IMG/VR virus record: IMGVR_UViG_3300021197_001527
Span: 1 to 26,064 of that record
Reading direction: 5' to 3' (one strand)
DNA length: 26,064 nt
Source of the DNA: a virus
Positions 1,905 through 26,064 of this stretch are shown here, piece after piece; the first letter of the stretch is position 1; each line of letters starts with the position of its first letter. The notes beneath the pieces were generated by a model. That model made no database searches and was not told where the DNA came from. It saw only the letters and a program-made list of their open reading frames with translations. The translations under genes were made by a program, and so were the position numbers.

Positions 1905-1905
1905 T

Positions 1906-8963: not shown

Positions 8964-9979
8964 TCTGTACCTACTCCATCCAAACTTGATAATATACCAT
9001 GAAAGTGAGTAACAAATCTCTGAGGCGTAAACAACTTAGAGTAAGTCTCTCTCATATTCTCTACATAAAATTTTTGTTGGTTTGGATAATCATCCAACAC
9101 GTTAGATATTTTGTCATTTAGATCTGACCAATCATAGTTGACATCAAGATAAGTCTCACCTGGTATGTATGGATTTGGTTCTGTTATCATCCAATCCAGG
9201 TTAGGTTTCACTAAAATAGAGCCCATCATACTTGCCTCTAAATCTCTTGGTGCCATAGCTCCATAACCCAAAGGAGCCATAATGAATCTAGATTTATACA
9301 TGTTGTTATAGTATTGTTCAATTGGTATCCTGACACCATTTTCTAACTTAGCTAATTTGAAAGATGGATCTAATGTTTCCATCAATGCTTTTCTGTGAGG
9401 ATCATAGTAATCTGTTTGGGATAACCCATGTTCGTATACTGGTTCTTTTGTAGGATATCCAAACATACAAGATACATCAAATTCCTTTTCAGGACTATAT
9501 GCATACCAATTTGTCTGTACGGTGGAAAGCCAATTACATCCTGCCAATCTTATACGAGGCATTAGTTCATCTATATCAGGAACATCATAATTACCTTTGC
9601 CCCAATAGTATCTACCATTAGCAGTCTTCTCTTTGTACATTTGAGGATCTCTTAACATACTGTTTTTTAACATACAGACCGCTTTAGATTCTCTCAACAA
9701 TTCTGCCGTTCCTATCAAGCTGGTGGAGTCTTGTCCATCCACTATAAAGTATTCACCGGTAACCTTAGATAAAAATTCTAGACCCTTCTGAACGGACTCT
9801 TCTAAAGATACTTTTTTATTTATTACACTAGCTTGACCCACGAACGCATAGTCGTATGAATCTGCTTCTCCTACAAACTCTATACCAGCTTCTTTGAACC
9901 AATCATAAGCAGCCATGTAAGGTCTGAATGTAGTTTCGTTGCGATGAATGTGATAATCTAGTAATTTAATTCGAATCAT
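8960..9979 (-). CDS. Exostosin-like glycosyltransferase
   Basis: A 339-residue protein whose C-terminal half resembles exostosin/GT47-type GT-B domains. Seen: MYKSRFIMAPLGYGAMAPRD followed by LEASMMGSILVKP and later YLDVNYDWSDLNDKI, matching the order of the nucleotide-sugar side of that fold: an acidic position in the LEA region, then the GxILVKP strand. The N-terminal half (about 1-190) carries HRNETTFRPY and DYAFVGQASV and has no motif I recognise. The ATG overlaps the end of the GT2 gene by four bases. Family knowledge: exostosin-like bacterial proteins add sugars to surface polysaccharides. Superfamily call is moderate, specificity unknown. Confidence 0.6.
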   Translation of the reverse strand: MIRIKLLDYHIHRNETTFRPYMAAYDWFKEAGIEFVGEADSYDYAFVGQASVINKKVSLEESVQKGLEFLSKVTGEYFIVDGQDSTSLIGTAELLRESKAVCMLKNSMLRDPQMYKEKTANGRYYWGKGNYDVPDIDELMPRIRLAGCNWLSTVQTNWYAYSPEKEFDVSCMFGYPTKEPVYEHGLSQTDYYDPHRKALMETLDPSFKLAKLENGVRIPIEQYYNNMYKSRFIMAPLGYGAMAPRDLEASMMGSILVKPNLDWMITEPNPYIPGETYLDVNYDWSDLNDKISNVLDDYPNQQKFYVENMRETYSKLFTPQRFVTHFHGILSSLDGVGTE

Positions 9980-10608
9980 TTGTTTGTTAGTACCTCATGA
10001 TAAAATAAATTTTGGTTTGTTTGTCTCTCTAGAGTTTTATGGTGATATAAGCTCCATTCTTCTTCTTGTGGAAGAAAACTGTAATCTGTATATCCCACCA
10101 TTCTCTCATGTACTGGTTTCACCCAATATATGTTAGATCGGTTCTTATGTATTCGAGGTTGCCAATCCGGATAGTTTACCCATCCCTTATCATTCAATAC
10201 CCATCCCCATCTCATAGCTATCTGATCGGTTATACCAGTAACTGTATTGACTCGTGGTACCCAGATTAAATCAACGTTAGTATTACTATCCAGGATAGCT
10301 TTAATGTTTGTTATCAAAGTGGCATGAGGCATCTCATCCGCATCTAGATTAAAAATATAATCTCCCTGACACATTTTTCTAAGATGATTTTTCTGACCTG
10401 CAAAATCTTTAGCCAAGCGTCGCTGCTCGTATCTAAAGTCATGAATACTACTATACGTCTCTATTATTTCTATAGTATCTTCGTTCGAGTAATCATCCAC
10501 GATAACTATTTCATCTTCTGCATCTTTATACTTGACTAACGTATCCAAGAGAGCCTCAAGAGTATCCGTTTCGTTGTGAGTCAATATACTGTAACTAATT
10601 GATGTCAT
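9976..10608 (-). CDS. Family 2 glycosyltransferase
   Basis: A 210-residue inverting GT-A enzyme. Seen: ISYSILTHNETDTLEALLDTL at the N terminus, the first acidic site VDDYS (D38, D39), the DxD metal site D89-A-D91 in FNLDADE, and a C-terminal WQPRIHKN...IYWVKPVHERM segment like that of the KdtX/WaaE group of LPS core transferases. Length is at the short end, as in single-domain members without membrane segments, so it should be cytoplasmic. The ATG shares one base with the upstream stop (TAATG). It probably adds a hexose or heptose to a lipid- or protein-linked glycan. Confidence 0.88.
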   Translation of the reverse strand: MTSISYSILTHNETDTLEALLDTLVKYKDAEDEIVIVDDYSNEDTIEIIETYSSIHDFRYEQRRLAKDFAGQKNHLRKMCQGDYIFNLDADEMPHATLITNIKAILDSNTNVDLIWVPRVNTVTGITDQIAMRWGWVLNDKGWVNYPDWQPRIHKNRSNIYWVKPVHERMVGYTDYSFLPQEEEWSLYHHKTLERQTNQNLFYHEVLTNK

Positions 10609-11129
10609 TATCCAGCCTTCGATAATTTAAATTTTATACCCTTCACACCGGTAATGTTCTTGATTTCATATTTTCTATATGCATTCTTTTTACTGAGAAT
10701 GGGTTTAGCTATACTACCATATACTTCTTGCATAATAGGTCTCAATACAGTCATAGCTGCAGATCCTATTCCTCCAGGAACAGCCATTCTTGTAATTGAA
10801 TTTTCAGGAGATACATATCTACCTCGCTCATCTCTTTCATCTTGGAATAGTTCTCTGGATTGTCCTCTGATATTACGACTCAGTATCTCAAATAATTTAT
10901 CCAGTTCATAATTGGACAGATAATTTAAATTGATACCATGGAGTAGTATTTTATCAGTATTAACATTTCTATCCGTTAATCCGTTAGCCATTACCATTAT
11001 CAAAGGTCTCTTGTCTCTTATGTTAGTACCAGAATATCTAAACTCGATAATCTGTCCTGCGCGAATCTTCGACTCTTTGAGAGGAATGAGTTTGAGTATC
11101 TTATCCCTATGACTGTATTTGCTTTGCAT
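10608..11129 (-). CDS. Unassigned phage protein, possible SH3-like/virion-associated
   Basis: A 173-residue basic protein I cannot name. Seen: a beta-rich N-terminal half with AGQIIEFRYSG and RPLIMVMANG, then LHGINLNYLSNYELDKLFEIL, a segment that recalls a GxNLxYL-type motif in short phage proteins linked to virion assembly; then a charged linker and a lysine-rich C terminus. No signal peptide or membrane segment. It overlaps the upstream gene by 23 bases and shares one base with the GT2 start. Lying between two-component-like zinc-ribbon protein and glycosyltransferases, it may be a structural protein or target of glycosylation, but this is a guess. Confidence 0.45.
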   Translation of the reverse strand: MQSKYSHRDKILKLIPLKESKIRAGQIIEFRYSGTNIRDKRPLIMVMANGLTDRNVNTDKILLHGINLNYLSNYELDKLFEILSRNIRGQSRELFQDERDERGRYVSPENSITRMAVPGGIGSAAMTVLRPIMQEVYGSIAKPILSKKNAYRKYEIKNITGVKGIKFKLSKAG

Positions 11130-11562
11130 TATCTAAGATTTGTCTGGCCTGGTTAAGAAATTCTATACACTCATAAAATTTACTAAAAACTGTTTGATTA
11201 TCAGTATCGTATCTCTTTGTATGGTAACCACCATCTCCATCTGGATATTTTGACTGTTCCTCTTCAGGAATACTTACCATCACTGCAAATGCCCATTTAG
11301 GTTGGTCGTTCTCTTCTATCAGGTATATCATGCCTTCAGGTAAAGTCATTACACCAGGTATCCAAGTTCTGTTTTGAACTACCTTCTTATATTTTTGAGC
11401 TAAACCTCCAGCCTTTTCCAACACATCAGTCTCTACGCCTTCTAGTAAGGAATCAGATGATGCATATCCACAATACAAACACTGAAGCATTTTTTCTCCA
11501 TCTTTCTCTATAATATGTAAAGACTTCTCACCACATAATGAACAATAAGTAACTAACTTCAT
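11107..11562 (-). CDS. Zinc-ribbon hypothetical protein
   Basis: A 151-residue protein with an N-terminal zinc ribbon: C7-xx-C10 in YCSLCG and C28-xx-C31 in QCLYCG. The middle holds RTWIPGVMTLPEGMIYLIEEN followed by WAFAVMVSIPEEE, a hydrophobic beta region, and the C terminus is helical (about residues 125-151). I do not recognise a named family. Its ATG lies at the end of the upstream GT gene and its stop overlaps the next gene, so it is co-translated with the glycan genes although it shows no sugar-related motif. Zinc ribbons often bind nucleic acid or protein partners; nothing here decides between these. Confidence 0.6.
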   Translation of the reverse strand: MKLVTYCSLCGEKSLHIIEKDGEKMLQCLYCGYASSDSLLEGVETDVLEKAGGLAQKYKKVVQNRTWIPGVMTLPEGMIYLIEENDQPKWAFAVMVSIPEEEQSKYPDGDGGYHTKRYDTDNQTVFSKFYECIEFLNQARQILDNAKQIQS

Positions 11563-12863
11563 TATATTTTCTTTAGTTTTGGTAGGTTGAGACTTACCGG
11601 TTTTGGAACATCCTTGGCAGCACTGCTGACTATATCGTTAAATAGCACCATCATATCGGATTGTTTGTATTTGGATCTGTTGCGTTTACCAAGTGCTCTT
11701 GCTTTATCCTTGAGCTCAACAATATTATCATATGCATACTTTAAAGCTGTATATGCTTGATGTTCATCAACCGTGAACCAAGAGGATTCTTTTATCAATA
11801 TTTCATCCCACACAGCAGAGTTTGGTATCTGTTCTAATTTACCATCAATTAACAAACTGTGTTCCTTGGAAAGAAAATCTACAGGTCCGGACCAATTGGA
11901 ACAGATCACTGGTAGATCTACCATGGTAGCTTCAAGTAACGGTCTACCAAATCCCTCACCATGAGTGAAGCTAACTAGTGATTTAATCTTTGGATGATTA
12001 TATAAATAACTCATCTCCATCTCTGAGAGATCGCCGTGCAATAAATAGACAGGTGGAAGCTTCCACTCTTCAGGAAACCCTCTCTGTACGCTTTTTATTT
12101 TACCCAAGATCTCTTCTTTGTCCAATATACTGAAAGTAGCTCCGCTTGTCTTCAATATCAAAGCTGGCTGTTTAGACTTATTAGCAAATGTTTCTGAAAA
12201 TACTTTGATGGTTCGGTAGATATCTTTGCGATCTTCCCCAAATCCTCCTTTGACCCACTGACCGACAAACAAGAATGCAAATTTTTCTTCCACCATATCG
12301 TTTATGTAATCAAAAAAATTCTTTTCAATTTCATCTGGTTTGATAACTTTGAAGATATCATCTTCCGTACCCTCGAAGAGAACTTTAACTGGTTTAGTAA
12401 CTTTTAGTTCCCCAACCTTTTGAGTAGTCCCGTCAGGCATATTATTAACTTGGTCATAAATAGTATTAACTATGGAAGCTTTACTGTGTTCTGAAGGTAC
12501 TATTATCATATCCATTTTGTTGCATCCCTCAACCCATGGCTGAGAAATTGCTGTCGTCTCTATACCAGCCGTCACTCCTATATTGACTTTACCAACTTGT
12601 TGGAATTCATTTGGAATTCTAACATCAAAGTAAATATCTGGTTGCTGGTTAAGTGGTCCTTTGAGAAAAGAATCTAATACTTGCTTGTGTCTAGGATTGT
12701 TGGGCTTTAAAAAGTTTCTTGGTGTCTCACCCCATCTCACATCTGCCAATACGATATCATATTTTTTTGAATCATTTAGAGCGTAAAACAATGATCTTGC
12801 ATGATCACCATATCCCGAACGTGTGTTGAATGGACCCTGCATTAATACTAACTGTTTAGACAT
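11562..12863 (-). CDS. GT-B glycosyltransferase, family 4-like (second of tandem pair)
   Basis: A 433-residue retaining glycosyltransferase of the GT4-like group. Seen: an N-terminal acceptor domain beginning QLVLMQGPFNTRSGYGDHARS with the glycine-rich start, a second Rossmann domain from about residue 195 (FAFLFVGQW), and the donor-binding EX7E motif E303-GFGRPLL-E311 followed by VICSNWSGP. Length is normal. It follows another GT4-like gene with a one-base junction and looks only distantly similar to it, so the pair may add successive sugars. Predicted soluble; acts on a nucleotide-sugar donor in the cytoplasm. Confidence 0.87.
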   Translation of the reverse strand: MSKQLVLMQGPFNTRSGYGDHARSLFYALNDSKKYDIVLADVRWGETPRNFLKPNNPRHKQVLDSFLKGPLNQQPDIYFDVRIPNEFQQVGKVNIGVTAGIETTAISQPWVEGCNKMDMIIVPSEHSKASIVNTIYDQVNNMPDGTTQKVGELKVTKPVKVLFEGTEDDIFKVIKPDEIEKNFFDYINDMVEEKFAFLFVGQWVKGGFGEDRKDIYRTIKVFSETFANKSKQPALILKTSGATFSILDKEEILGKIKSVQRGFPEEWKLPPVYLLHGDLSEMEMSYLYNHPKIKSLVSFTHGEGFGRPLLEATMVDLPVICSNWSGPVDFLSKEHSLLIDGKLEQIPNSAVWDEILIKESSWFTVDEHQAYTALKYAYDNIVELKDKARALGKRNRSKYKQSDMMVLFNDIVSSAAKDVPKPVSLNLPKLKKI

Positions 12864-14230
12864 TATACTACCTCCAATGTGTACTTAGGTTTTGGTTTCC
12901 AATTATCAAATGCTCCATCCATAGAATCTATGAATCCTTGTCCCATTTCAGCTGCATCCATTCCTATATTTTTATTCTTTACGAACTCTCTACCCAAGTT
13001 ACCACACCTCTCTCTTTCCTCTGGACCTACATTGTACCATTCTAATAGAGCTTCACCAGCATCTTCATACGTACATCTGTCGTCAAATATGTATGGTGTT
13101 GGAGGTGACCCCATCAGTGATATAGTTGCGGGAAATACTGGTTTTGCCCACTCACCACACTCAGTATATTGACCTCTGTGGTTACTCCCTAACTCAACAT
13201 AGTCTTCTGCTGAAAGATGTGTGCCATCTTCTTTTTGAAACCCACACTGATCTTGTAGACCACCCGTAACATTTACCACTATTGGTGTTCCGACAGTAAG
13301 AGCCTCACAGCTGCCTAGCCCAAAGCCTTCGTTGGATGCTAAGTTGATATAAACATCACATTCATTAAACAAGAAGTTCATTTTTTGATCATCAAACGGA
13401 CCACCTCTATCATATGTAAATATTGCTCTGTAGTTTGGCATCATCGCTTTACATACAGCTCTTAGATCAGTTCCATTATCATCACTAACTTGAGTGTGAA
13501 ACACGATAGCACATTTGTCTCTATCTTTTTCAGGTAATTGATCTACCATGTGTTTGAAAGCCATCACTACGTCACCAGGTTGTTTTCTTCTAATGTTACG
13601 GTTACTGTAAAGTACTTTAAATTCATACTTATCTAGCTCGTATTGTTTACAGAAGTTAATATATTCGGTTGTCGACTTATTCACAGGAAAGAATCTCTTA
13701 CTGTTGATCCCGTGAGGAACATACTTCAATTGCCAATCTTCATAGTCTGGTAGTATTCTTTTATTTATGCCATACGTCTGTTTGGAAATAGACAATAAGA
13801 GATCACAACTACGATAAAAGTTTTCATTCCACATTGGATCTGGAAGATCATCCCAAATATTATTATAGAATATTGGAATCTGTGTTCTTATTTCATGTTC
13901 CATCTGATACAACCATATCCAAAATCTTGGATCTGTATAGTGTAATATTGCATCAGGCTTTTCTGCTGCTATAACCTCTCTTAATACATCAGGATTACCG
14001 TACCCACTAACAGGATAAATCTTTACAGATGCATCCTTTACTCCGGTTTCAGTTGCCGCCATCTGTGACATGTCAGTCACTTTTCCTTCTTCAGGATGTT
14101 TGATAGCTCCTCCTATCTGTACCCAGTCATATTTGTGTAATGTATTCATTACGATGTCCTTGGATACAGTTGCGACTCCACTATGCATACGCATATCATC
14201 ACTCAGTAGTAATATTTTTTTCTTTGCCAT
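12863..14230 (-). CDS. GT-B glycosyltransferase, family 4-like (first of tandem pair)
   Basis: A 455-residue retaining glycosyltransferase. Seen: KKILLLSDDMRMHSGVATVS at the N terminus, VPHGINSKRF (about 171-180) typical of the inter-domain region, and the EX7E donor motif E301-GFGLGSC-E309 followed by GTPIVVNVTGG. Residues of about 330-400 form an extra segment rich in acidic and aromatic residues that is longer than in most GT4 enzymes, perhaps an acceptor-site insertion. The ATG starts two bases after the small ribbon-helix-helix-like gene ends. It is the first large gene downstream of the operator-like repeats at 14446-14473, so the glycan island may be controlled from there. Confidence 0.87.
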   Translation of the reverse strand: MAKKKILLLSDDMRMHSGVATVSKDIVMNTLHKYDWVQIGGAIKHPEEGKVTDMSQMAATETGVKDASVKIYPVSGYGNPDVLREVIAAEKPDAILHYTDPRFWIWLYQMEHEIRTQIPIFYNNIWDDLPDPMWNENFYRSCDLLLSISKQTYGINKRILPDYEDWQLKYVPHGINSKRFFPVNKSTTEYINFCKQYELDKYEFKVLYSNRNIRRKQPGDVVMAFKHMVDQLPEKDRDKCAIVFHTQVSDDNGTDLRAVCKAMMPNYRAIFTYDRGGPFDDQKMNFLFNECDVYINLASNEGFGLGSCEALTVGTPIVVNVTGGLQDQCGFQKEDGTHLSAEDYVELGSNHRGQYTECGEWAKPVFPATISLMGSPPTPYIFDDRCTYEDAGEALLEWYNVGPEERERCGNLGREFVKNKNIGMDAAEMGQGFIDSMDGAFDNWKPKPKYTLEVV

Positions 14231-16163: not shown

Positions 16164-16405
16164 TCTACTGCAGAAGTTTTAGTGAACTCTTCATTTACAT
16201 GTAGACATGACTCGCATGCGAACACTACTATAGGTATGATAGTATCCTTACCGTTTGGTGATACAATAGCCGACATTCTCTTTAGTAAGGTAGTTTGTTT
16301 AAATGTGTGGTTACCGCATTTTTCGCACACCATATCCGTTGCTTTTGATAAATCGATATTAGGTTGCTGTCTTGGTTTTTGGCCTAGGCCGTATGTTTCT
16401 GACAT
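16160..16405 (-). CDS. Small zinc-ribbon protein between the two clamp-loader genes
   Basis: An 81-residue protein with C27-xx-C30 and C64-xx-C67, a four-cysteine zinc ribbon whose knuckles are 34 residues apart. The N terminus (about 1-22) is polar and likely disordered; the middle KQTTLLKRMSAIVSPNG and IPIVVFACESC form the beta strands of the ribbon. I do not know a function. The ATG shares one base with the clamp-loader stop (TAATG), and its stop overlaps the gp62-like start. This fixed position inside the loader operon suggests a replication accessory role, for example DNA binding or a polymerase/clamp adaptor, which is inference. Confidence 0.7.
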   Translation of the reverse strand: MSETYGLGQKPRQQPNIDLSKATDMVCEKCGNHTFKQTTLLKRMSAIVSPNGKDTIIPIVVFACESCLHVNEEFTKTSAVD

Positions 16406-17316
16406 TATGTCTCCGTTTTTAATATGTTTACGATCAGTGCCATGAAGTTGATTTCTTTATCAACGGCATGAACGTCTCTGTATTGAGCTTCACTCAAATG
16501 TAGTATTATTTGTGGTTCTGATCCAGATGGTGCATAATTATCCAACTCATCATACAAGAACTTAATTAGTTCGTTATAATCCTGTACGTGATTGTCTGCT
16601 ACTAACTGACGGATACTTCGTAGTGAACTCTTCTTTGATAAGTGTTCTACCAATTGTTGCTTATAGCTCTGTTCTATCACAGATGAAGCATCAATTTTTA
16701 TCTTCCCACCAACAGTCTGTCTCTGAGCTGAGTTTATTACTTGTCTGATGTCAGGGTATCCCATATTGACTAGGACAGCTACATCATCCACCTTACACTG
16801 TACACCTTCAGTTTGAAGTATATTATATAGATGAGAAGCTACTTCTTTCTTGGAAGGAGGTTTGACGTTATATGCTTGACATCGAGATTGGATTGGGTCT
16901 ATAATCCTTTCAACATAATTACACGTTAGAATAAATCTCGTATGTTGACTAAAAGTTTCCATTATGTTTCTCAATGCTGCTTGACTAACCGGTGTAAGAT
17001 AATCAGCTTCATCTAATATTACAATCTTTAGTGGATTAAAACCTACAGAAGATGCGAACGTCTTAATTTTATCTCTAACGGTGTCGATATTTCTCTCATC
17101 ACTAGCATTAATATATAAATGATCACTAGAGACGTTCTTAACTATTATTTTAGCTAGTGTGGTCTTACCCGTTCCAGCTTTACCATACAATAACAAATGT
17201 GGAATATCAGAACTACTAATGTATCCCTCAAATTTACTCCGTAGATGTTCATTACCTACATAGTTTTTTAGATCCTTGGGTCTATGTTTTTCAGTCCAAA
17301 TATATTGGTCTATCAT
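16405..17316 (-). CDS. 44: Clamp-loader large subunit, AAA+ ATPase (T4 gp44-like)
   Basis: A 303-residue AAA+ ATPase (T4 gp44 is 319). Seen: the WTEKHRPKDLKNYVG clamp-loader N terminus, Walker A GKAGTGKT (45-52), Walker B VILDEAD (99-105), sensor-1 TCN (131-133), and the trans-acting SRC motif (144-146) in DPIQSRCQAY, with a sensor-2-type PDIRQVIN later. The protein would form the ATP-driven pentamer with gp62 that opens the sliding clamp onto primer ends. The ATG shares one base with the clamp stop. All catalytic signatures are intact. Confidence 0.95.
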   Translation of the reverse strand: MIDQYIWTEKHRPKDLKNYVGNEHLRSKFEGYISSSDIPHLLLYGKAGTGKTTLAKIIVKNVSSDHLYINASDERNIDTVRDKIKTFASSVGFNPLKIVILDEADYLTPVSQAALRNIMETFSQHTRFILTCNYVERIIDPIQSRCQAYNVKPPSKKEVASHLYNILQTEGVQCKVDDVAVLVNMGYPDIRQVINSAQRQTVGGKIKIDASSVIEQSYKQQLVEHLSKKSSLRSIRQLVADNHVQDYNELIKFLYDELDNYAPSGSEPQIILHLSEAQYRDVHAVDKEINFMALIVNILKTET

Positions 17317-18041
17317 TAATTATCATCCTGTATTGCTGTTAAGAAATACTCACTATGATAGTCTCCACTGTCAAATTTAATATGAAGCAACCCTTTATCT
17401 GAAAATTTTAACTCACCTAATGTACACTCTCTATTAGCTAGAAGTATTTCTTTGAATACGTTTGCATTGAAAGTTAATCTCTCCATAGGAAAATCACTTT
17501 TCTTTACATTTAGAGGTATACTAACCCTATGTGAATTTGTATTAGAGTGACCTATAACAATTTTAGTAGTACCGTTTTGAATCAAGCTAAAAGTTTCTAT
17601 CTCTGACAGAGCCGTTTTGCCTTTTATGAATGTATTACTAAAGTTACTATCCACATCTACACTTAGATCAAAGTCTGGTAGATTCTTTAGAGAAGGTGGG
17701 TCTTCAAATACACTCAAGTCTGCTAATGCAAAATTAACTTCATTCCCATTACTTTTCAACTTCAATGATATAGCTGCTTGATCTATCTCTACCAATGACA
17801 CGTCTAGATTTCCATCCAGCACACTGAGCATCCTTGATAGTTGACCTGTTGAGTATACCCCAAGTACGCGATCATCAAAATCAACATTATCTACTTTTAC
17901 TTTACCAATCAAAGACTTATCTGGAGTCATCATAGCTGTCAATAGATTATTATTTTTAAATATCCACTTCACAGAATCTATTGATCCTCCCAAAGAGTAT
18001 TTGATTATAAACCTCTCTAACTTAGTTTTATTCATTATCAT
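17316..18041 (-). CDS. 45: Sliding clamp (T4 gp45-like processivity factor)
   Basis: A 241-residue protein in the position and size of T4 gp45 (228). Sequence signals are weak, as usual for clamps: alternating beta strands and helices, a start KTKLERFIIKYS, the VLGVYSTGQLSRMLSVLD helix region near residues 59-76, and a C-terminal SDKGLLHIKFDSGDYHSEYFL strand pair. Family knowledge: gp45 is a trimer ring that tethers the polymerase and, in T4, also activates late transcription. I keep the ATG at 18041, which has GGAG seven bases upstream, over the second ATG six bases later. It overlaps the dUTPase-like gene by 14 bases and joins directly to the loader gene. Confidence 0.88.
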   Translation of the reverse strand: MIMNKTKLERFIIKYSLGGSIDSVKWIFKNNNLLTAMMTPDKSLIGKVKVDNVDFDDRVLGVYSTGQLSRMLSVLDGNLDVSLVEIDQAAISLKLKSNGNEVNFALADLSVFEDPPSLKNLPDFDLSVDVDSNFSNTFIKGKTALSEIETFSLIQNGTTKIVIGHSNTNSHRVSIPLNVKKSDFPMERLTFNANVFKEILLANRECTLGELKFSDKGLLHIKFDSGDYHSEYFLTAIQDDN

Positions 18042-18546
18042 TTAGATACTCCGGCAAGTCGCCCTCTTTGGTGTTGTATCCACCTGAGTATGAACCCCAG
18101 CTTTTACTATCACCTATTATGAATTGAGCTACTCTGGACATCTTTTCTAACTCCATAGTGCCTCCCATGTTATATAACATACCATTTATATGGCCTTGAT
18201 ATCCTGAATCATACAGACCACTTAAAATATACACACCATTACGATTAAGCGTTGATCTAGTTACTAACCAACCAACCGTTCCTGGTTGCATCTCGACGTA
18301 TGCTGGTGACATGAAATCATATATACCCTTTTCCAAATTCCATATCTCTTTACCATCTTTGTTCTCCGTCGATACTAATTCTCGCTCTCTATGAGTCTTG
18401 TCTTCTTGGTGTAGTGTAAACTTTGTAGTTGTATCAACTTTCCATATTTTTTCTATTCGTAAATCTACAGCGTTTGGTTCTACATGATTAACGAGAACAC
18501 CTTTCAACCATCCTTTCTTGATGGGCTCCATTGGATTATTAAACAT
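18028..18546 (-). CDS. dUTPase/dCTP-deaminase-fold protein, probably dUTPase-like
   Basis: A 172-residue protein of the dUTPase/Dcd superfamily. Seen: PNAVDLRIEKIW near the N terminus, VTRSTLNRNGV (R97, S98) as the triphosphate-binding segment, GLYDSGYQGHINGMLYN as the nucleotide-site motif with D113, and SRVAQFIIG. The C-terminal SWGSYSGGYNTKEG resembles the glycine-rich flexible tail closing over the active site. In dCTP deaminases a Glu stands where this protein has M123 (INGMLYN), so deamination looks unlikely. Role: hydrolysis of dUTP to keep uracil out of DNA and supply dUMP. Strong AGGAG site five bases before the ATG. It fits with the neighbouring dNMP kinase and clamp genes. Confidence 0.8.
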   Translation of the reverse strand: MFNNPMEPIKKGWLKGVLVNHVEPNAVDLRIEKIWKVDTTTKFTLHQEDKTHRERELVSTENKDGKEIWNLEKGIYDFMSPAYVEMQPGTVGWLVTRSTLNRNGVYILSGLYDSGYQGHINGMLYNMGGTMELEKMSRVAQFIIGDSKSWGSYSGGYNTKEGDLPEYLNDNE

Positions 18547-18559
18547 TTATACTCCTATG

Positions 18560-19501
18560 TTATCGCAAGTTTGTGCCATCATCGGCAAACTTACTCGTTA
18601 CTGCTATTGCATTCCAAGGATGCAAACTTTCTTCATGTGATATCGATACACTGAAATCTGATATCACGTTTTTATCATACCACTCATCTAATGCCTGGTG
18701 TAATATTCTAGCCACATCTTCACTAAACAATAAATTAGCTCCATTCAACTCTGCAAATGCTTGCTCATCTTTTCTCTTCACCACTATCTGTACTTCGGTA
18801 GGTATGTGTTCTCTACATAATTCTACTAAGTCCTCTATCCAAACTATCTTTTCATCAGTTGGATCAAAGCCTACAGTCACTGTAGCTATTGATCGTTGGC
18901 TATGGGCATTTGCTGCAGCTTCTCTTCTAGTTCTAGCATCATAAGCTAACTCAAAGCTACATGGACAGGTCGAAGAGTATACATACTCAATAGTTAAATA
19001 AAATGTATATGGACTGGATCCATTAGAGGTCTTTTTATACTTACAATCCAATGTGGTATTATATGCTATATGACCCTCCAAGTTAGATCTCAGAGATTGT
19101 TGAGTCCAAGGATACTTGAAACGTAACTTACAGTAAGCCGTTTCTGATCCTTGCTTATCTGCTAATTCTGTTAGAGCGTCCTTAATACCGTCGATAGATA
19201 ATTTATCTTTTATCTTTTCATGCATAAGAAGATACAATCTAGATAAATTTAACCCCTTGGCGTTTACATCATCTAGAGAACAATACAAACTTGCTTCTGC
19301 TTGAAGAACTTGACTCTCTCCATCCCTTCTTAACAACTTGACCGGTAGGTCGACAGGACCTATTCCAACCTTTTTGAGTGGTATTCTAGCACCTGGGATC
19401 ACTGGATCTATTTGTGGATCCGGTAAGTCATCCCCAGGTATATGTTTCTCATCATACTTAAAAACCAAATCAGGCATCTTTCCTGAATAATCAATCGACA
19501 T
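18560..19501 (-). CDS. folE2: GTP cyclohydrolase IB (FolE2)
   Basis: A 313-residue protein of the FolE2 (type IB) family, which converts GTP to dihydroneopterin triphosphate, the first step to 7-deazaguanines and folate. Seen: GIGPVDLPVKL near residues 46-56, the metal cysteine motif STCPC (C179, C181), HSQRS beginning at H200, FSEDVARIL with E261, and the C-terminal signature HEESLHPWNA (H289-A298) with H294. Length is slightly above usual bacterial FolE2 (about 260-310). The ATG lies inside the DpdA end (11-base overlap) with GGAGG eight bases upstream. Together with QueD, QueE and DpdA it supplies the precursor of a DNA base modification. It is not the more familiar FolE type. Confidence 0.92.
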   Translation of the reverse strand: MSIDYSGKMPDLVFKYDEKHIPGDDLPDPQIDPVIPGARIPLKKVGIGPVDLPVKLLRRDGESQVLQAEASLYCSLDDVNAKGLNLSRLYLLMHEKIKDKLSIDGIKDALTELADKQGSETAYCKLRFKYPWTQQSLRSNLEGHIAYNTTLDCKYKKTSNGSSPYTFYLTIEYVYSSTCPCSFELAYDARTRREAAANAHSQRSIATVTVGFDPTDEKIVWIEDLVELCREHIPTEVQIVVKRKDEQAFAELNGANLLFSEDVARILHQALDEWYDKNVISDFSVSISHEESLHPWNAIAVTSKFADDGTNLR

Positions 19502-20312
19502 TAATTGTCCTCCATGCTACAAAGTTATCGTCTACAGTTTTCAGTTCTAACATAGAAAGCTGTTTACTAAAATCTAATTTTTCTAAAACTATATCATCCA
19601 CAAGACGATTCTCAATTTTATTTCCTGTGTAACCATATACAAATGGCATTGATGTGTCATTAGAACGTATCCAATCATACCCCATACTATAGTAATAAGT
19701 CAACTCATTTATTCCTGCATTATCAGATCCAAGTAGATGAGTTTCTTTACCAAATTTATCTGGAGTCATATCATGTTCAATCAAAAAATCTATACATTTA
19801 ATTCTACCCTTAGTACAGTTTCCACTCTCCGTGTGGTTACCCTGAAAGCTTTCGGGTACAGACAGCTTTGATAATCCTATTACATCAATATTATCCATCC
19901 TTACCAACTCTTCATAACAATCTAACCACTCCACTTGCGTCCTACCCTGCGGTATCGCCATGAATTTTGTAGTTTCATATAAGCTCTGATCCTTCTTGTT
20001 CACGAACTTACAAAAGTCCCTAACCGAGTCTACTGTGTCGGCTCCATTAAACAATATATCTATAGCACATATTTCATCTGGCAAAGACATCTGTGCTGCA
20101 CTCAATACCATATCTTGAGGTACTCCTCTTCCCTCTTGTTCAAACTCAAATGCTGAATTATCCATAATAGTATAGCTTTGTTGGTTAGAATAGTATTCAC
20201 AATACTTCTCATCTGATAATATCTTATGTGCTAAACTGAGTTGTCTTTGACCCAATGATGCATGTGATTCTAGATGTGGTGTGCTAGTAATATAGCATAT
20301 ATCAATTTTCAA
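19491..20312 (-). CDS. dpdA: DpdA-like DNA guanine transglycosylase (TGT superfamily)
   Basis: A 273-residue protein related to tRNA-guanine transglycosylase and best read as phage DpdA, which swaps guanine in DNA for a 7-deazaguanine base. Seen, in TGT order: DNSAFEFE (D51) near the substrate-binding site, ICAIDILFN, MAIPQGRT (IPQG 120-123, like the IVQG of TGT), VIGLSKLS (144-151, like the GG.SVGE region), HLLGSDNAG (192-200), and SNDTSMPF with D219, the likely nucleophile position. The start is TTG at 20312, supported by AAGGAGG five bases upstream; it overlaps the previous gene by 11 bases. Shorter than bacterial TGT (about 375) and lacking its zinc-binding tail, as expected for a phage DpdA. 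Which DpdA subfamily it belongs to cannot be told by eye. Confidence 0.82.
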   Translation of the reverse strand: MKIDICYITSTPHLESHASLGQRQLSLAHKILSDEKYCEYYSNQQSYTIMDNSAFEFEQEGRGVPQDMVLSAAQMSLPDEICAIDILFNGADTVDSVRDFCKFVNKKDQSLYETTKFMAIPQGRTQVEWLDCYEELVRMDNIDVIGLSKLSVPESFQGNHTESGNCTKGRIKCIDFLIEHDMTPDKFGKETHLLGSDNAGINELTYYYSMGYDWIRSNDTSMPFVYGYTGNKIENRLVDDIVLEKLDFSKQLSMLELKTVDDNFVAWRTINVD

Positions 20313-20658
20313 TTATTCCTCCTTGAATGTTATCTTCGAAGACAGATACCTTCCAATTTCTGTCTCCATATTTTTCTATTAATTTATTTAGTACCATTGA
20401 GCCTAGCATCTCACAACTACTGGCTCCAAATTTTTTAATGTACTTTCCTGGATATTTATCTTCAATAATTTTCATGAGATCAATCCTCAACATAATAAAT
20501 TCTATCTCTCTGTCATGATGCTCAACATCACACTCTACATAAAAGTGAAAGTCGTGATGATGTTCGTGCCTTAGAAATCCAACCTCAGGAAAATGTTTAT
20601 CAGCATTGGGCCAATTGTGTGTTCCTAACACGATATGCTTTACTTTAATTCTCGCCAT
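20302..20658 (-). CDS. Second PTPS/QueD-like protein
   Basis: A 118-residue protein that I place, with caution, in the 6-pyruvoyl-tetrahydropterin synthase fold. Seen: H14 in GTHNWP, a histidine cluster H31-E-HHH-35 with HxH spacing, V44-E-HHDREIEF (H47, H48, E51, E53), a conserved-looking SSCEML with C82 and E83, and E108 near the C terminus. H14 plus H33/H35 could form the zinc triad of this fold, and E83/E108 the pterin or deazaguanine contacts. It is clearly different from the QueD at 21971-22414, and sits between dNMP kinase and dpdA. It may act on CDG or on another step of base modification. Deazaguanine phages are reported to carry a CDG decarboxylase named DpdL; whether this is it I cannot verify. 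Confidence 0.55.
   Translation of the reverse strand: MARIKVKHIVLGTHNWPNADKHFPEVGFLRHEHHHDFHFYVECDVEHHDREIEFIMLRIDLMKIIEDKYPGKYIKKFGASSCEMLGSMVLNKLIEKYGDRNWKVSVFEDNIQGGIIEN
20318..20324 (-). promoter_or_regulatory. Strong ribosome-binding site deciding the TTG start of dpdA
   Basis: AAGGAGG on the minus strand, five bases before TTG at 20312-20310. No ATG is in frame near the beginning of the conserved sequence, so this site fixes the unusual start. Confidence 0.75.
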
Positions 20659-21226
20659 TCATATATCCTTCTATTTGTTCGTACAAATCATTATAGTTAC
20701 CACAGTTATCGATGTAATGATCACACTCATCTTGTGCTGTGGTATTAACAAAGTTTTCCGATACGTGTTCGCTCTGATCTTTTGTTAATCCTGTTCTTCC
20801 ACCTACGTAAATTACATCTCCACCATTCTTTTTGATCCAATCATATTCAATTTTAAATCTCACATCAGATACTACTATGCTTGTTTCTCCATTAGTACCA
20901 AGTTCCTTTACCTTATCTTGAATAGAACGCTCGAGCCAATACGTATCCGCAATTCTATACCTCATATCCATACCATATAATTGAAGAAATCTTCTCACTG
21001 AGAACTTGCCATGATTGACCACTTTAGTATCCTGCATGTCCCACAAACACAACTCTTTGTTCTTGATAGATTCAAGCGTCTCCAGATCCATATCAAGATA
21101 TTTACACAAATCCACTTTCATGGCATCAGCAGCTGCTACGCGATTAAAATCATAATGTTCAACTAAATAATTAGCAATAGTGTCCTTACCGGAACCACCT
21201 TTACCACACACACCTATTATATCCAT
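20645..21226 (-). CDS. Deoxynucleoside monophosphate kinase
   Basis: A 193-residue P-loop kinase like T4 gp1-type dNMP kinases, which phosphorylate dNMPs to dNDPs for DNA synthesis. Seen: Walker A GKGGSGKDT (8-16), an early AAADAMKVDL segment, the FSVRRFLQLYGMDMRYR region with paired arginines for phosphate binding, the VVSDVRFKIEYDWI Walker-B-like strand (about 118-131), and IYVGGRTG further on. The ATG shares one base with the QueE stop and has GGGAGG five bases upstream, the best ribosome site in the cassette. In a virus with modified guanines such a kinase might meet unusual nucleotides, but DpdA acts on DNA after synthesis, so ordinary precursor supply is the simplest role. Confidence 0.87.
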   Translation of the reverse strand: MDIIGVCGKGGSGKDTIANYLVEHYDFNRVAAADAMKVDLCKYLDMDLETLESIKNKELCLWDMQDTKVVNHGKFSVRRFLQLYGMDMRYRIADTYWLERSIQDKVKELGTNGETSIVVSDVRFKIEYDWIKKNGGDVIYVGGRTGLTKDQSEHVSENFVNTTAQDECDHYIDNCGNYNDLYEQIEGYMNGEN

Positions 21227-21978
21227 TACACCTCCCTTTCCGTATCAAATGCAATTATGTGATCCCTACCCGTCATTCTGTAACCTCGTTCTGCACACAA
21301 TTCAAACACTTTAGGATACATTTCTATCAATGTTTCTCTAGTATCTCCCGCAGGCATAATATATGTTTTAGATTTTGGTATGTTTAACTCCACTCTGAAT
21401 TCTTCTATCTCGTTAATATTCTCTTCCGTTCCATCCCATACAGGTTTAAAGTGATAATCTGAATGGTATGAAATCAACTCATCTATTGTGTCTAAATTTA
21501 GCCTCAATCTATTGTGAGTGTCAACAAATTTTTGATCTACTATCTGACCCTTTGGCGTCTTAGTTCCAACCACTGGAACTGAGTTACTAAATTTTGGACT
21601 TATACTTAACAAGTGTATTGGTATATCAGTCTCGAATGCATGAGAACCTTCCGTTTCCATCGTGACAAATATGCCTCGATCATCGGCAAAATACATTAAG
21701 TCATTTACTAACTCTTGATGCATACTAGGTGATCCACCAGTCAACATCATCTCATCAATCTGTGGATTGTCGTCATATATCTTATGAAGATCGTCCCAAG
21801 TATATTTACCCTTCTCGGGATGTATGCTCGTGTACCAGGAATCACACCACCCACCTTCACCAAAATAACATCTATGAGTGCAACCGGTTGTTCGAACAGC
21901 TATCGTTGGAATGCCAAATCTACTACCTTCTGATTGTACACATCTGTATAATTCTAATATTGGTAATGTCTTAGACAT
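21226..21978 (-). CDS. queE: 7-carboxy-7-deazaguanine synthase, QueE (radical SAM)
   Basis: A 250-residue radical SAM enzyme that contracts carboxytetrahydropterin to CDG. I start at the ATG at 21978, since the family begins just before PILELYRCVQSEG; an upstream ATG at 22041 would only add QueD-overlapping sequence. Seen: QSEGSRFGIPT, then the Fe-S cysteines C33, C37 and C45 in GCTHRCYFGEGGWCDSW, TGGSPSM, METEGSHAF and a C-terminal IMPAGDTRE. The cysteine spacing is CX3CX7C, with a five-residue insert compared with the common CX3CX2C; known QueE enzymes do vary here. The start overlaps the QueD stop by eight bases. No QueC gene follows in the window. Confidence 0.9.
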   Translation of the reverse strand: MSKTLPILELYRCVQSEGSRFGIPTIAVRTTGCTHRCYFGEGGWCDSWYTSIHPEKGKYTWDDLHKIYDDNPQIDEMMLTGGSPSMHQELVNDLMYFADDRGIFVTMETEGSHAFETDIPIHLLSISPKFSNSVPVVGTKTPKGQIVDQKFVDTHNRLRLNLDTIDELISYHSDYHFKPVWDGTEENINEIEEFRVELNIPKSKTYIMPAGDTRETLIEMYPKVFELCAERGYRMTGRDHIIAFDTEREV

Positions 21979-22414
21979 AATATTCTGCCATGTTATCTTC
22001 ATGTTCCCAGCACTGAACCTTGTATACCTTTGCCCTACCATTAGTTTCTTTCGTGACTACTTCTTGTAGATATTTTGCTACAAGTTCAGCAAACTTTTCG
22101 CATCCAACGCCATCTTCTAATATCCTGAGGTCGATAAGTTCCGCTTCATCTAAAAACTTAAACAATTTTAATTCAGGATCATCAGCTGCTACGCATGTAG
22201 TATGATCAAACATGTTTTTCATCCACTCCTTCACACCATTACGTTTGAAACAACCAAAATCTATAACCCAACCCTTATCATCAAGTTCACCTTCAAACCA
22301 TACTTTAAAACAAAAGGCATAACCATGAATTAGATTACAATGCGAGTCAGCTCTCCATTGTCTAAATGCTGTGCTGTATCCTATAAATCTTTTATAACTT
22401 CTATGTTTACTCAT
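21971..22414 (-). CDS. queD: QueD-type 6-carboxytetrahydropterin synthase (variant zinc site)
   Basis: A 147-residue PTPS-fold enzyme expected to turn dihydroneopterin triphosphate into 6-carboxytetrahydropterin. Seen: the catalytic cysteine C26 in SHCNLIHGY with the usual four-residue spacing to H30, WVIDFGCFK (D52, F53, G54), the FDHTT segment (D70, H71), GCEKFAEL (E106), and E137 near the C terminus. The normal zinc triad is His, His, His (SAAHRL and HGH); here these positions read F17, H30 and Y32, so only one ligand is standard. H25 may substitute. Related variants are, as I recall, found in some bacteria and phages. The ATG shares one base with the stop of a tiny membrane-peptide gene. 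Confidence 0.85.
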   Translation of the reverse strand: MSKHRSYKRFIGYSTAFRQWRADSHCNLIHGYAFCFKVWFEGELDDKGWVIDFGCFKRNGVKEWMKNMFDHTTCVAADDPELKLFKFLDEAELIDLRILEDGVGCEKFAELVAKYLQEVVTKETNGRAKVYKVQCWEHEDNMAEYYV

Positions 22415-22562: not shown

Positions 22563-25067
22563 TTAAAAAAACCTTGCAAGTGTATTTCTAGGATCAGTTG
22601 GTGGTGCCCACTTCATAGCATCATAGAAAGTAATAATTTTATTCAAAGCTAACTTTTCATATAACTTTTCTATATCAATATAAACCTTTACAAACTCCAT
22701 TATCTTATCCGGATTATCTGTATTCTTGAACGCTACTTTATTAATCCCATATGGGTTTGTCTTCAAGTATACCCATTTTATTTTATCTCCACCAACCACT
22801 TCAGTATATTGGTCATCTACATCCATATCTTTTAACATTGAGTTATAATTTATTGCTGATTGTACATGTGCTGGAGTTCCTTTGACTGATTTATTACCTG
22901 GTCCTAAAAACTTTTTTATTTGTTTTATACCTGTGGACATTGCGATATCTACTATGGGTTCTTGTTTCATGTTTCGTTTGAATGATATTACAATATCATC
23001 TATAGCATCTTTAGTCTTACCTTTGAGTAGCCCCGTGACGACCTCTGTTAATAGTGTCTTGAAAGATTTAGGAAAATTACTTCTAACTATGTCTATACCT
23101 TTAACTAATAACTCATCTACACGCATACCCTCGGAGTCTATAATCCACAAACTATATCTCTTCTTACTTATAAAAATACCATTTGGAGCAATTACTTCTT
23201 GCTTGAATACAAAACGATGTTCGTCTATATTAATCATACGTTTGGCAAACATATTGAGTGATGTATTGATATAGTCTTGAAACTTTTCGCATTCCTTCAA
23301 GGTAAGCTCGACCATAGTATCATGGTTTGTAACATCTACTGATTTATCATTCTTTTGTATGAGTGGTAATGCACTGAAGAATAATGAGTCCGTGTCGATG
23401 TATATACAATAATCTTTCTCTATACCCAGCTTTTCCTTATAATAGTGATTACCAGCTCGTTCTGCGTATTTGATCATGGCTTGACCAGTTGTTGTAACCG
23501 ACATTGCATTCTCAAGATCATAATATCTAAACACTGGTAATGCTGCAGCTCCGTACATAGAATTTAATAAAATCTTTTGTGTATATTGTTTGATATCAAA
23601 TATATGAGCTGTTTCTTTATCTCCCTGTTGGAAGAACTTCTTTCTAAGATTCTTGAACTCCACACGTTCAGAGAACCACTCGTTGAGTATTGATGGAATC
23701 AAACCTTTAATATCTGTACGATATAGTATTCCATGAGCTGATATAGCTATCGCATTATCATCAAGATGCTTTTTCATTCCATCGTGGTCAAAAGTTCCTA
23801 TAACTTTACCCTTTAAATCTTCCACTCTATACTGTAAATCTTTCTTACGAGCATACTTCTCTGCATCCCATCCAATAACACGACCCACTTTTGTCTCTGG
23901 GGATATATTCAAACTCATCATAATATTAGGATACATACTAGCCGCATCAATATCAAAGACCCATTGATGCATTCCTACTTGAGGAGATTTCACAAATGCT
24001 CCTGTGATTCGCTCATCACGATCCATATGAGCTACATATTCTGTATTAGCCTTTGACGGAGCTATCACGCCTTTACGTTTTAGATATGTAAGTATGGCTC
24101 CATCCAATAAATGAGATGTGGAATATATACTCTCATATGGTACGTGACCCTTATGAGCAAGAGCCCTTGCAACATCCATATAGTTAAGTTTATCGTCTAG
24201 GAGTTTTAATATTCGAACGTCGTTAATGTTATATTCTATGAACTTGTCTATATCATTTGCATATAAATCGTTTAGAGTTCCCTCATAGGCAACCTTCTTT
24301 ACTCCAACTTCCAACGAACCTATATCGTCGAGTTTATATGATGGTCTATCTCCCATACTAAACTTCATGTATAATCTATAATAATCAAGACATGATATAC
24401 CAGCTATCTTGAAAACGTTCTGTCCTCTGTTAAAGATAACTGTACTTATTGGTGACAGCTCGTTAGCTAACTCCGTACCAAGTACCACGCACATTCTGCT
24501 GTATAGATAAGGGACGTCAAAGTTGTCTATGTTCCATCCACTGAATATAGTTGGATTGATTTGTTTGACGAGAAGTATAAAATGTTTGAGAAGCTCATCT
24601 TCTGTAGAAAATACTTCAATGTCAATGTTATCTTTAGATTTTAGTGTAAGTTTATTGTTTAGATCTAGGACTCCAACATAATATTTGTCATCTTCTTGAT
24701 CGTATACGGTAAATGATAATATTCTATTAATTGGATTGTGCCAATCTGGAAATCCTTCAAGCACTTCTGTTTCTATATCAAAATAAAGTACCTTATGGTT
24801 TACTGATGGTTCATCTGAATTATGATACAAGTCGACTAATGTACGCATTTCAGGATTTATATCAGATTCAAATAATTTAGAAGTGTCTTCTTTTTTCCAA
24901 TACTTTATCTTTTTGAGTTTATCTCCGTATAGAGATCGGAGAGTACCTGATCTGTTTTTTTCATATGCATACTTTTTGAACGGTAGCATAGTGTGACCTT
25001 TTTGATCATCCCACAAATGAATTAGTGGCTTAGCTCCTGTCCAACTTATAAAAATATTCTGATACAT
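22563..25067 (-). CDS. 43: Family B DNA polymerase (T4 gp43-like)
   Basis: An 834-residue replicative polymerase (T4 gp43 is 898). Seen: 3'-5' exonuclease motifs ExoI D97-I-E99 (YFDIET), ExoII around D184 (NIDNFD) and ExoIII Y279...D283; polymerase region II D374-AASMYP, region III in KQYTQKILLNSMYG (K498 and N502), region I YID558-TD560-S, and the KKRY motif at 635-638. All catalytic residues are present. The last residues, NTLARFF, form a hydrophobic C-terminal tail like the clamp-binding peptide of T4-type polymerases. The ATG at 25067 has AAAGG about eight bases upstream. It is the first gene after the hairpin downstream of the receptor gene. Confidence 0.97.
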   Translation of the reverse strand: MYQNIFISWTGAKPLIHLWDDQKGHTMLPFKKYAYEKNRSGTLRSLYGDKLKKIKYWKKEDTSKLFESDINPEMRTLVDLYHNSDEPSVNHKVLYFDIETEVLEGFPDWHNPINRILSFTVYDQEDDKYYVGVLDLNNKLTLKSKDNIDIEVFSTEDELLKHFILLVKQINPTIFSGWNIDNFDVPYLYSRMCVVLGTELANELSPISTVIFNRGQNVFKIAGISCLDYYRLYMKFSMGDRPSYKLDDIGSLEVGVKKVAYEGTLNDLYANDIDKFIEYNINDVRILKLLDDKLNYMDVARALAHKGHVPYESIYSTSHLLDGAILTYLKRKGVIAPSKANTEYVAHMDRDERITGAFVKSPQVGMHQWVFDIDAASMYPNIMMSLNISPETKVGRVIGWDAEKYARKKDLQYRVEDLKGKVIGTFDHDGMKKHLDDNAIAISAHGILYRTDIKGLIPSILNEWFSERVEFKNLRKKFFQQGDKETAHIFDIKQYTQKILLNSMYGAAALPVFRYYDLENAMSVTTTGQAMIKYAERAGNHYYKEKLGIEKDYCIYIDTDSLFFSALPLIQKNDKSVDVTNHDTMVELTLKECEKFQDYINTSLNMFAKRMINIDEHRFVFKQEVIAPNGIFISKKRYSLWIIDSEGMRVDELLVKGIDIVRSNFPKSFKTLLTEVVTGLLKGKTKDAIDDIVISFKRNMKQEPIVDIAMSTGIKQIKKFLGPGNKSVKGTPAHVQSAINYNSMLKDMDVDDQYTEVVGGDKIKWVYLKTNPYGINKVAFKNTDNPDKIMEFVKVYIDIEKLYEKLALNKIITFYDAMKWAPPTDPRNTLARFF

Positions 25068-25182: not shown

Positions 25183-26064
25183 TTAAAAATTAACCGAAAG
25201 TCCTACATTGAAGTTCCTTGGAGTTCCAAGAAATACTTCAGCGTTATGAGCAGCATGAACTTTATCACCATACCCATTATACTTACTGTTATCCACAGCA
25301 TCTTGTACATATACATTATCCAAAGCATTGAATAGATGAGCGCTTAGTGTCATATCTAATCCAGCTACTTGAGGTAATTTATATGATAGATGTAAGTCCA
25401 ATTTGGAATAACCAGGAGCTTTCCAAACCTGTGATCTATCAACATCATCTCCATCTACTTCACGAGAATCAGGTGACCAATCAGAATAATTATCATCGTA
25501 CATTTTAAACAGACCCTGTATATTTAATCCCTTGATAGGTTTGATCGTCAGACCACCTACATAAGCTGTTTGTGGCATGTCACCGACAAATAGATTATTG
25601 AGAGCGTAAGTATACTCTGTTGTTTTCATACCAATGACTTGATCGTTATCATTGTACTCTTGTTCTTGATAATCACCTTTAGCGTCACCATCAAACTTCC
25701 AAGTACCTTTACTAAGAGCCAAGTCTAAGTCTACCATGTTATGAAGAGCCACTTTAGCTTCTACTTCATAACCTGTATGACTTTGGTTTACACCAGATAA
25801 GAATATTACATCAGTATCGCCTGAATCACCTTGCCCTGTCATTACTGACTTAGTAAGGTTTCTATCAGACCACTGTGTATTGTATCCATTCACTTTTAGA
25901 GCAACTTTATCACTCTTGTAGTCTCCACCCACTTCACTACTAAAGAACTTTTCATTTGCTGGATCTGAAGCTACTGAGCCATCATTATAGATTACATTAT
26001 CCATAATAGGCGGCTTTTGTACAAACCCTACGTTAGCAAACGCTGACATTCTATCATCTAAATT
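25183..26064 (-). CDS. TonB-dependent receptor, C-terminal beta-barrel part (runs off the window)
   Basis: The reading frame stays open to the last base of the window, so an ATG at 26049 is internal; 293 residues are visible. Seen: FANVGFVQKPPIMDN followed by a strand-rich stretch with NEKFFSSEVGGDY and LKVNGYNTQWSDR, the late barrel region of TonB-dependent outer-membrane receptors; later AYVGGLTIKPIKGLNIQG, LDLHLSYKLP and LFNALDNVYVQDA; and the end FLGTPRNFNVGLSVNF with alternating hydrophobics and final Phe, the BAM recognition signal. The plug domain and TonB box would be outside the window. Family knowledge: these proteins import siderophores, vitamin B12 or glycans. Finding one next to a phage polymerase is unusual; it could be an import gene, a receptor-related trick or an assembly error. 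Confidence 0.85.
   Translation of the reverse strand, partial: NLDDRMSAFANVGFVQKPPIMDNVIYNDGSVASDPANEKFFSSEVGGDYKSDKVALKVNGYNTQWSDRNLTKSVMTGQGDSGDTDVIFLSGVNQSHTGYEVEAKVALHNMVDLDLALSKGTWKFDGDAKGDYQEQEYNDNDQVIGMKTTEYTYALNNLFVGDMPQTAYVGGLTIKPIKGLNIQGLFKMYDDNYSDWSPDSREVDGDDVDRSQVWKAPGYSKLDLHLSYKLPQVAGLDMTLSAHLFNALDNVYVQDAVDNSKYNGYGDKVHAAHNAEVFLGTPRNFNVGLSVNF

Follow-up and report, generated by a model that had tools for sequence, protein, structure and literature searches.

The stretch of DNA analysed here (the window, 26,064 nt, IMG/VR virus record IMGVR_UViG_3300021197_001527) is a fragment of a marine T4-like phage genome and probably encodes a phage pathway to DNA containing 7-deazaguanine (dDG), a known phage base. 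In the proposed pathway, FolE2 would convert GTP to dihydroneopterin triphosphate, QueD would then produce CPH4 and QueE 7-carboxy-7-deazaguanine (CDG), a 118-aa protein with a QueD fold would remove the carboxylate of CDG to give 7-deazaguanine (DG), and a DpdA-type transglycosylase would swap guanine for DG. FolE2, QueD, QueE and an accompanying kinase are identified by profile matches, and predicted structures give DpdA a TGT fold and the 118-aa protein a QueD fold, while DG as the end product is what we infer. The base predicted for this DNA is thus corrected from dCDG to dDG.

The FolE2, DpdA-like, QueE and QueD-like genes form one operon, all on the minus strand and overlapping or adjacent, and Pfam, PHROG and Foldseek matches confirm this cassette as it was first described in an earlier note on this DNA. 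It lies between the gene of a T4-type family B DNA polymerase (gp43; 22563..25067, minus strand; phrog_262, E 1.5e-184) and those of a dUTPase-like protein, a gp45-like sliding clamp (17316-18041, minus strand) and a gp44-like clamp loader (16405-17316, minus strand), the last two recognized by eye from their translations. The cassette is thus inside the replication region, as had been noted, and the gene order around it is the same in the relatives L012-L016 and L022. Judged by this gene order, it is plausible that modification is timed with DNA synthesis.

FolE2 (GTP cyclohydrolase IB, 313 aa; 18560..19501, minus strand) matches PF02649 with an E value of 1.2e-60. Its sole match among 50,697 phage records was a pair of unannotated Staphylococcus records, and the enzyme is essentially absent from cultured phages. 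On the DpdA tree, FolE2 replaces FolE in at least 6-7 swaps, a repeated substitution suggesting that in some settings the first step of the pathway was taken over by a different enzyme. The QueD-like 6-carboxytetrahydropterin synthase (147 aa; 21971..22414, minus strand) matches PF01242 (PTPS, E 1.1e-17) and phrog_2389 (E 8e-35), and, in an alignment that included phage QueDs and the E. coli protein, shows the phage-type motif SHC..HGY. Relative to the E. coli sequence that we used for comparison, whose zinc ligands we take to be H16, H31 and H33, the Cys and one HGx His are kept, and F and Y stand at two zinc-His positions, so that the activity of the window QueD is not certain; the same F/Y pattern is common to nearly all aligned phage QueDs. 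The QueE-type radical SAM 7-carboxy-7-deazaguanine synthase (271 aa as listed; 21226..22041, minus strand) matches phrog_2076 (E 6.9e-47) and PF04055 (E 1.4e-6), and its true start is probably near 21978, directly after queD, as in relatives. The set of FolE or FolE2, QueD and QueE that goes with DpdA systems is therefore present.

QueC (PF06508) was not found in the 26-kb record, itself a fragment of a genome, confirming what the earlier note had reported for the window, and the search for it beyond the window gave the same result. QueC is absent from every longer contig of close relatives, among them one of 53 kb and one of 57,144 bases from phage L018, which is nearly identical to the window phage (97% at the 118-aa gene). 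A set of 68 IMG/VR records that contain the 118-aa gene, some with lengths of 136-292 kb, gave no QueC match over the cut-off. Neither QueC nor Gat-QueC, the mark of a preQ0/G+ pathway, was detected in the record fragment or these 68 records. Among nine cultured genomes with the 118-aa gene, eight gave no QueC, and the ninth, Vibrio D479, encodes one partial and divergent QueC-like protein about 100 kb from that gene. The two strong QueC matches (immuto and L146) came from records that have this DpdA clade and lack the 118-aa gene. The 118-aa gene and QueC are thus reciprocally distributed, and the former occupies the place where other phages have queC. One could suppose that QueC or preQ0 from the host, or a QueC encoded outside the fragment, leads to dPreQ0 or dPreQ1, as the window is only 26 kb long and many bacteria have QueC (the profile matched 12 of 14 control genomes); this is very improbable given the results for the longer contigs and the IMG/VR records, and it leaves the 118-aa gene unexplained.

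The 118-aa protein (20302..20658, minus strand) has no match in Pfam and matches phrog_17812. Its predicted structure (pLDDT 95.5) has E. coli QueD as top PDB match in Foldseek (4ntk, E 1.6e-5, TM 0.74), and a profile match to the PDB PTPS 2dj6 (E 0.005) aligns H14 and H33xH35 with the zinc histidines and E108 with the C-terminal Glu. The three zinc histidines are kept and the catalytic cysteine of QueD is missing; across 41 family sequences H14, H33, H35, R50, E53, S81-C82-E83 and E108-D109 are invariant. Of 54 distinct related loci, 50 have the gene close to DpdA, and 565 candidate stretches of environmental viruses passed tblastn for the family. Both this gene and that of the dNMP kinase lie within the cassette as the earlier note delimited it and were not named there. 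A QueD-related fold without the catalytic Cys, in a DpdA cluster without queC, is what characterizes DpdL, and this circumstantial fit makes the family a candidate DpdL. DpdL was reportedly predicted to be a CDG decarboxylase by Cui and colleagues in 2023. On sequence and model, the 118-aa protein is a putative CDG decarboxylase, and a simple decarboxylase would agree with its small size, its lack of an extra cofactor domain and its place where the QueC step branches off.

Two other products were weighed against DG. The earlier note held that the cassette stops at CDG, which DpdA would insert to give dCDG. FolE2, QueD, QueE and DpdA would be enough for CDG, no QueC was found, and dCDG is said to have been found in phages in the same work of Cui and colleagues. 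Hutinet et al. likewise raised CDG for phage Bipper, which has no QueC (PMC6884629). Yet this explanation gives no role to the overlooked 118-aa gene, present in nearly all the DpdA loci and missing from the strong-QueC records, and we regard it as unlikely; the claim that the cassette ends at CDG is probably wrong. The note had named as products either dCDG or a decarboxylated deazaguanine, and the distribution of the 118-aa gene together with the lack of QueC makes the second the most likely one and speaks against the first. Equally unlikely is that the 118-aa protein alters the base in some other way, for example by another C7 substitution, giving an undescribed 7-deazaguanine. Decarboxylation is a prediction for this T-fold protein with zinc-type histidines, the T-fold serves several pterin and purine reactions, and other phages have the gene together with a glycosyltransferase and an unrelated 424-aa family, but the features that fit a simple decarboxylase, and the fact that dDG is already known, argue for DG.

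The DpdA-type guanine transglycosylase (273 aa; 19491..20312, minus strand) has no match in Pfam, and a profile built from the DpdA alignment found nothing meaningful among PDB sequences, whereas the fold search did identify TGT: the model (pLDDT 93.6) has a TGT fold, with a Foldseek PDB match at E 6.5e-9, and its top BFVD match is M4SLA5 of Cellulophaga phage phiST (E 1e-19). D51 and D219 are invariant in 36 family sequences. The protein groups with the phiST, immuto and Campylobacter CC_R7/CP220-type enzymes, apart from the DpdA of phage 9g, and its profile recovers the CC_R7 DpdA (E 9e-19) but not that of 9g. The link to CP220 goes via CC_R7, whose DpdA matches those of CP220 and CPt10 (E 1e-8 to 2e-9) and is only about 29% identical to that of CP220. 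The window DpdA may thus be DpdA3-like, a member of the subclass linked with complete G replacement. The enzyme thus belongs to a phage DpdA clade and is not a tRNA TGT, in agreement with the note's reading of it as acting on DNA. That QueD and QueE are queuosine-pathway enzymes could point to genes that raise queuosine in host tRNA instead, as Hutinet et al. suggested for phages without DpdA (PMC6884629), yet with so short a transglycosylase of the phiST/Campylobacter clade, and with QueC not found in the record, we give this almost no credence. In CP220 and CPt10 DNA, 100% of dG is replaced by dADG (PMC8306585), and by analogy within the clade the degree of G replacement in the window phage may also be high.

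Two further enzymes probably assist this system by acting on nucleotides. The dUTPase/dCTP-deaminase-fold protein (172 aa; 18028..18546, minus strand; PF22769, E 3e-11) is encoded close to DpdA at 50 of the 54 loci, and its dUTPase-type Asp, D113, is invariant. The active-site Glu of the dCTP deaminases is missing, the aligned position being A, V or M in the dUTPase-fold set A5 versus LELSN of 2qxx. Its closest phage homologues are in phages that also have the 118-aa gene and this DpdA, but the family is not exclusive to them, and Bacteroides DAC phages that lack this DpdA have more distant copies. The deoxynucleoside monophosphate (dNMP) kinase (193 aa; 20645..21226, minus strand) matches PF21448 DNMK (E 3.6e-20) and phrog_139 (E 2.4e-41). 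In 18 of 58 loci DpdA has a small kinase gene nearby; 19 of the 675 genes near DpdA encode kinases and none of the 583 far ones does (Fisher p 7e-6, a statistic that ignores shared ancestry).

These enzymes bear on whether the base enters at the DNA or through the nucleotide pool, as this DpdA clade consistently comes with a gene resembling those of dNTP phosphohydrolases and in many cases with a kinase gene. In the window phage and most relatives the partner has the dUTPase fold; in phiST and immuto it is MazG, and in CP220 an HD-domain protein. The FolE2 swap, the dUTPase-fold partner and the frequent adjacent kinase suggest, without proving it, that guanine is exchanged on the nucleotide before replication and not in DNA, a possibility we put forward tentatively and hold to be rather doubtful. 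The dNTP phosphohydrolase would turn dGTP into dGMP, on which, as a free nucleotide, the short, mostly acidic DpdA would exchange the base; the triphosphate would be restored by the neighbouring dNMP kinase together with enzymes of the cell, and the phage polymerase would incorporate it. If true, complete replacement would be explained and the DpdA clade would be a nucleotide-level base exchanger. The charge of DpdA does not decide between the two levels: the window protein is acidic (pI 4.6, net -19), as are most relatives, but two are basic, and phage 9g has an acidic DpdA too (pI 5.6). Cui and colleagues reportedly conclude in 2023 that insertion is post-replicative. A modified-dGTP route has been proposed for Campylobacter phages, as cited in a passage of PMC6884629.

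Among cultured phages the queC-less route through the 118-aa protein is rare, but in environmental viruses it is widespread. One of the closest known arrangements is that of phiST (gp036-gp042). Like the window, phiST has QueD, QueE, a 118-aa homologue, a kinase and a TGT-fold DpdA in one operon, with no QueC found; it differs by FolE, a MazG-type pyrophosphohydrolase and a Pol III-type polymerase, where the window has FolE2, the dUTPase-fold protein and a T4-type polymerase, and the two DpdAs are about 28% identical. The DpdL/DpdA3 dDG pathway, like the one proposed for the window, has CDG made without QueC, a decarboxylase at the branch and a short DpdA subclass; FolE2 and the dUTPase-fold partner are not known to be part of it. 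The Campylobacter phages CP220, CPt10 and CC_R7 have a DpdA of the same clade adjoining a P-loop kinase, and in CP220 an HD phosphohydrolase flanks DpdA opposite the kinase; tblastn for the 118-aa family gave no match in Campylobacter phages, CC_R7 differs by QueC beside DpdA, and CP220 and CPt10 by their dADG base. The dG+ system (DpdA1) of Enterobacteria phage 9g likewise combines FolE, QueD and QueE with a TGT-related DpdA in an operon linked to replication; it differs by Gat-QueC and an amidated product, and its DpdA shows no detectable relation to that of the window beyond the Asp motif. No comparison for the 118-aa gene came from Cellulophaga phi38:2, which is reported to be modified and relies on QueC and QueF. 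Should the exchange occur at the nucleotide level, the Z-genome (2-aminoadenine) pathway would be a parallel.

The window spans the entire record, which is a virus fragment of 26,064 bases. Its replication region contains a T4-type DNA polymerase (22563-25067), with gp45-like and gp44-like genes downstream on the same strand. Between them lies a compact gene run: QueD (21971-22414, same strand as the polymerase; PF01242), QueE (21226-22041; phrog_2076), a dNMP kinase (20645-21226; PF21448), a 118-aa protein (20302-20658) of family phrog_17812, a DpdA-like protein (19491-20312) with a TGT-fold model, FolE2 (18560-19501; PF02649) and a dUTPase/DCD-fold protein (18028-18546; PF22769). The PF01242, phrog_2076, PF21448, PF02649 and PF22769 assignments are all far above chance. 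The FolE2, QueD, QueE and DpdA-like genes of the earlier note were borne out at their positions; the 118-aa gene and the kinase, both inside the cassette, had been left out.

The 118-aa protein gave no match in the Pfam search. Its model (pLDDT 95.5) resembles E. coli QueD 4ntk (fold search, E 1.6e-5, TM 0.74), and a profile of 41 sequences matches the archaeal PTPS 2dj6 (E 0.005), placing H14 and H33xH35 on the AAH and HGH histidines and E108 on the C-terminal Glu. C82, the only invariant Cys of the family, sits elsewhere than the QueD catalytic Cys, indicating that the protein is paralogous to QueD but lacks its nucleophile. Of 54 distinct loci, 50 have its gene in the neighbourhood of DpdA; such counts are of distinct DpdA sequences, which are not independent, and not of separate origins. 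No QueC above the Pfam cut-off was detected in the 68 IMG/VR records carrying the 118-aa gene (21 + 47, including contigs of 136-292 kb), nor in eight of the nine cultured genomes holding it. The two strong QueC matches, Flavobacterium immuto and L146 (a comparison record), have the window-type DpdA and QueF-like genes and lack the 118-aa gene. Thus, QueC and the 118-aa gene are mutually exclusive, with one weak exception, the ninth cultured genome, Vibrio D479, where a partial, divergent QueC-like protein lies ~100 kb from the 118-aa gene. The simplest reading is that the 118-aa protein is a putative enzyme acting on CDG in QueC's place, where loss of the carboxylate would yield 7-deazaguanine. 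Given this paralogue and the reciprocal distributions, the proposal that the cassette stops at CDG is probably wrong. Both dCDG and dDG were reportedly found in phages by Cui et al. 2023, who are said to have predicted a CDG decarboxylase, DpdL; phrog_17812 may correspond to it.

The DpdA-like protein also lacked a match in the Pfam search. An AlphaFold2 model built from 36 environmental sequences (pLDDT 93.6) resembles tRNA-guanine transglycosylases in the PDB (E 6.5e-9, probability 1.00), and its top match among viral models is phiST M4SLA5 (E 1e-19, TM 0.86). D51 (IMDNSAFE) and D219, invariant in all 36 sequences, stand where strands 47-51 and 215-220 end, a placement that would fit the catalytic Asp pair of TGT. 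The DpdA profile detects immuto, phiST, MA9V-3, RHph_I1_18, Bakedbeans and Campylobacter CC_R7 (E 9e-19 or better); phage 9g DpdA was not detected with it. The CC_R7 protein in turn matches proteins of CP220 and CPt10 (E 1e-8 to 2e-9), in which 100% of dG is dADG (PMC8306585). Judged by these sequence matches, the window DpdA appears to be in a clade that takes in full-replacement phages. This clade may correspond to DpdA3 of Cui et al. 2023. Gene content, folds and distributions are what the analysis demonstrates; conversion of CDG to DG, base insertion and high replacement are inferred.

Guanine might instead be exchanged at the nucleotide level. A kinase and a gene resembling dNTP phosphohydrolases in the company of DpdA would favour this, but only 18 of 58 loci have a small P-loop kinase-like gene no more than 3 kb from DpdA, and DpdA charge gave no clear pointer to DNA or nucleotide exchange; we consider this route rather unlikely. 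In Campylobacter CP220 (L209 1043-3536), whose dG is 100% replaced, the DpdA relative has nucleotide enzymes on both flanks: first an HD phosphohydrolase that carries a fused P-loop kinase-like domain and then, beyond the DpdA relative, a P-loop kinase.

Several observations concern relatives and surrounding genes. In phage-type QueDs, two zinc-ligand His of the E. coli enzyme are replaced (AAH; HGH to HGY) and an extra His precedes the Cys (SHC), a pattern kept in nearly all aligned phages including the window (21971-22414). Two unlike QueD copies occur in tandem in the records L015 (216-1177) and L016 (4191-5152), and L022 has the second type only. A second architecture without the window-type DpdA (L007, L009, L010 and L047-L083; examples Acidovorax ACP17 and Synechococcus BUCT-ZZ01) combines FolE, a 424-aa family (phrog_10773, not detected in PA5oct), a glycosyltransferase-like protein, the 118-aa protein and QueD/QueE; its end product may be a glycosylated 7-deazaguanine. 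Beside the polymerase lies the gene for a 909-aa SusC-like, TonB-dependent receptor of the outer membrane, which carries carboxypeptidase-regulatory and plug domains and is present in the window as its C-terminal part (25183-26064, - strand) and complete in L011 (1905-4634), L012 (2747-5476), L014 (1540-4269), L017 (957-3689) and the near-identical phage L018 (2747-5476). Phages seldom encode such a receptor, and it may point to a host of Bacteroidota type. Genes for sugar and glycan metabolism, recognised from their translations only, fill about 14 kb (98-14230, - strand), with NDP-sugar epimerases, DegT-type aminotransferases, glycosyltransferases and a sulfotransferase-like gene.

FolE2 has only two matches, unannotated Staphylococcus records, among 50,697 phage records, and is present in 12 of 54 DpdA loci. 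At least 6-7 FolE/FolE2 changes are required on the 75-row DpdA tree, which has some long branches, indicating that the first enzyme was swapped repeatedly. At 50 of 54 loci, DpdA has the dUTPase-fold gene in its vicinity. The nearest phage homologues of the dUTPase-fold protein are in RHph_I1_18, D479, Bakedbeans and Ahp1 (E 1e-19 or better), all of which also carry the 118-aa gene and the window-type DpdA; MA9V-3 has a weaker copy. The dUTPase Asp, D113, is invariant and the deaminase Glu position holds A/V/M, a residue pattern that makes the protein likely a dNTP diphosphatase and not a dCTP deaminase. Taken with its neighbours, the cassette is of the queC-less 7-deazaguanine type found in phiST, here with FolE2 in place of FolE and with the dUTPase-fold companion.
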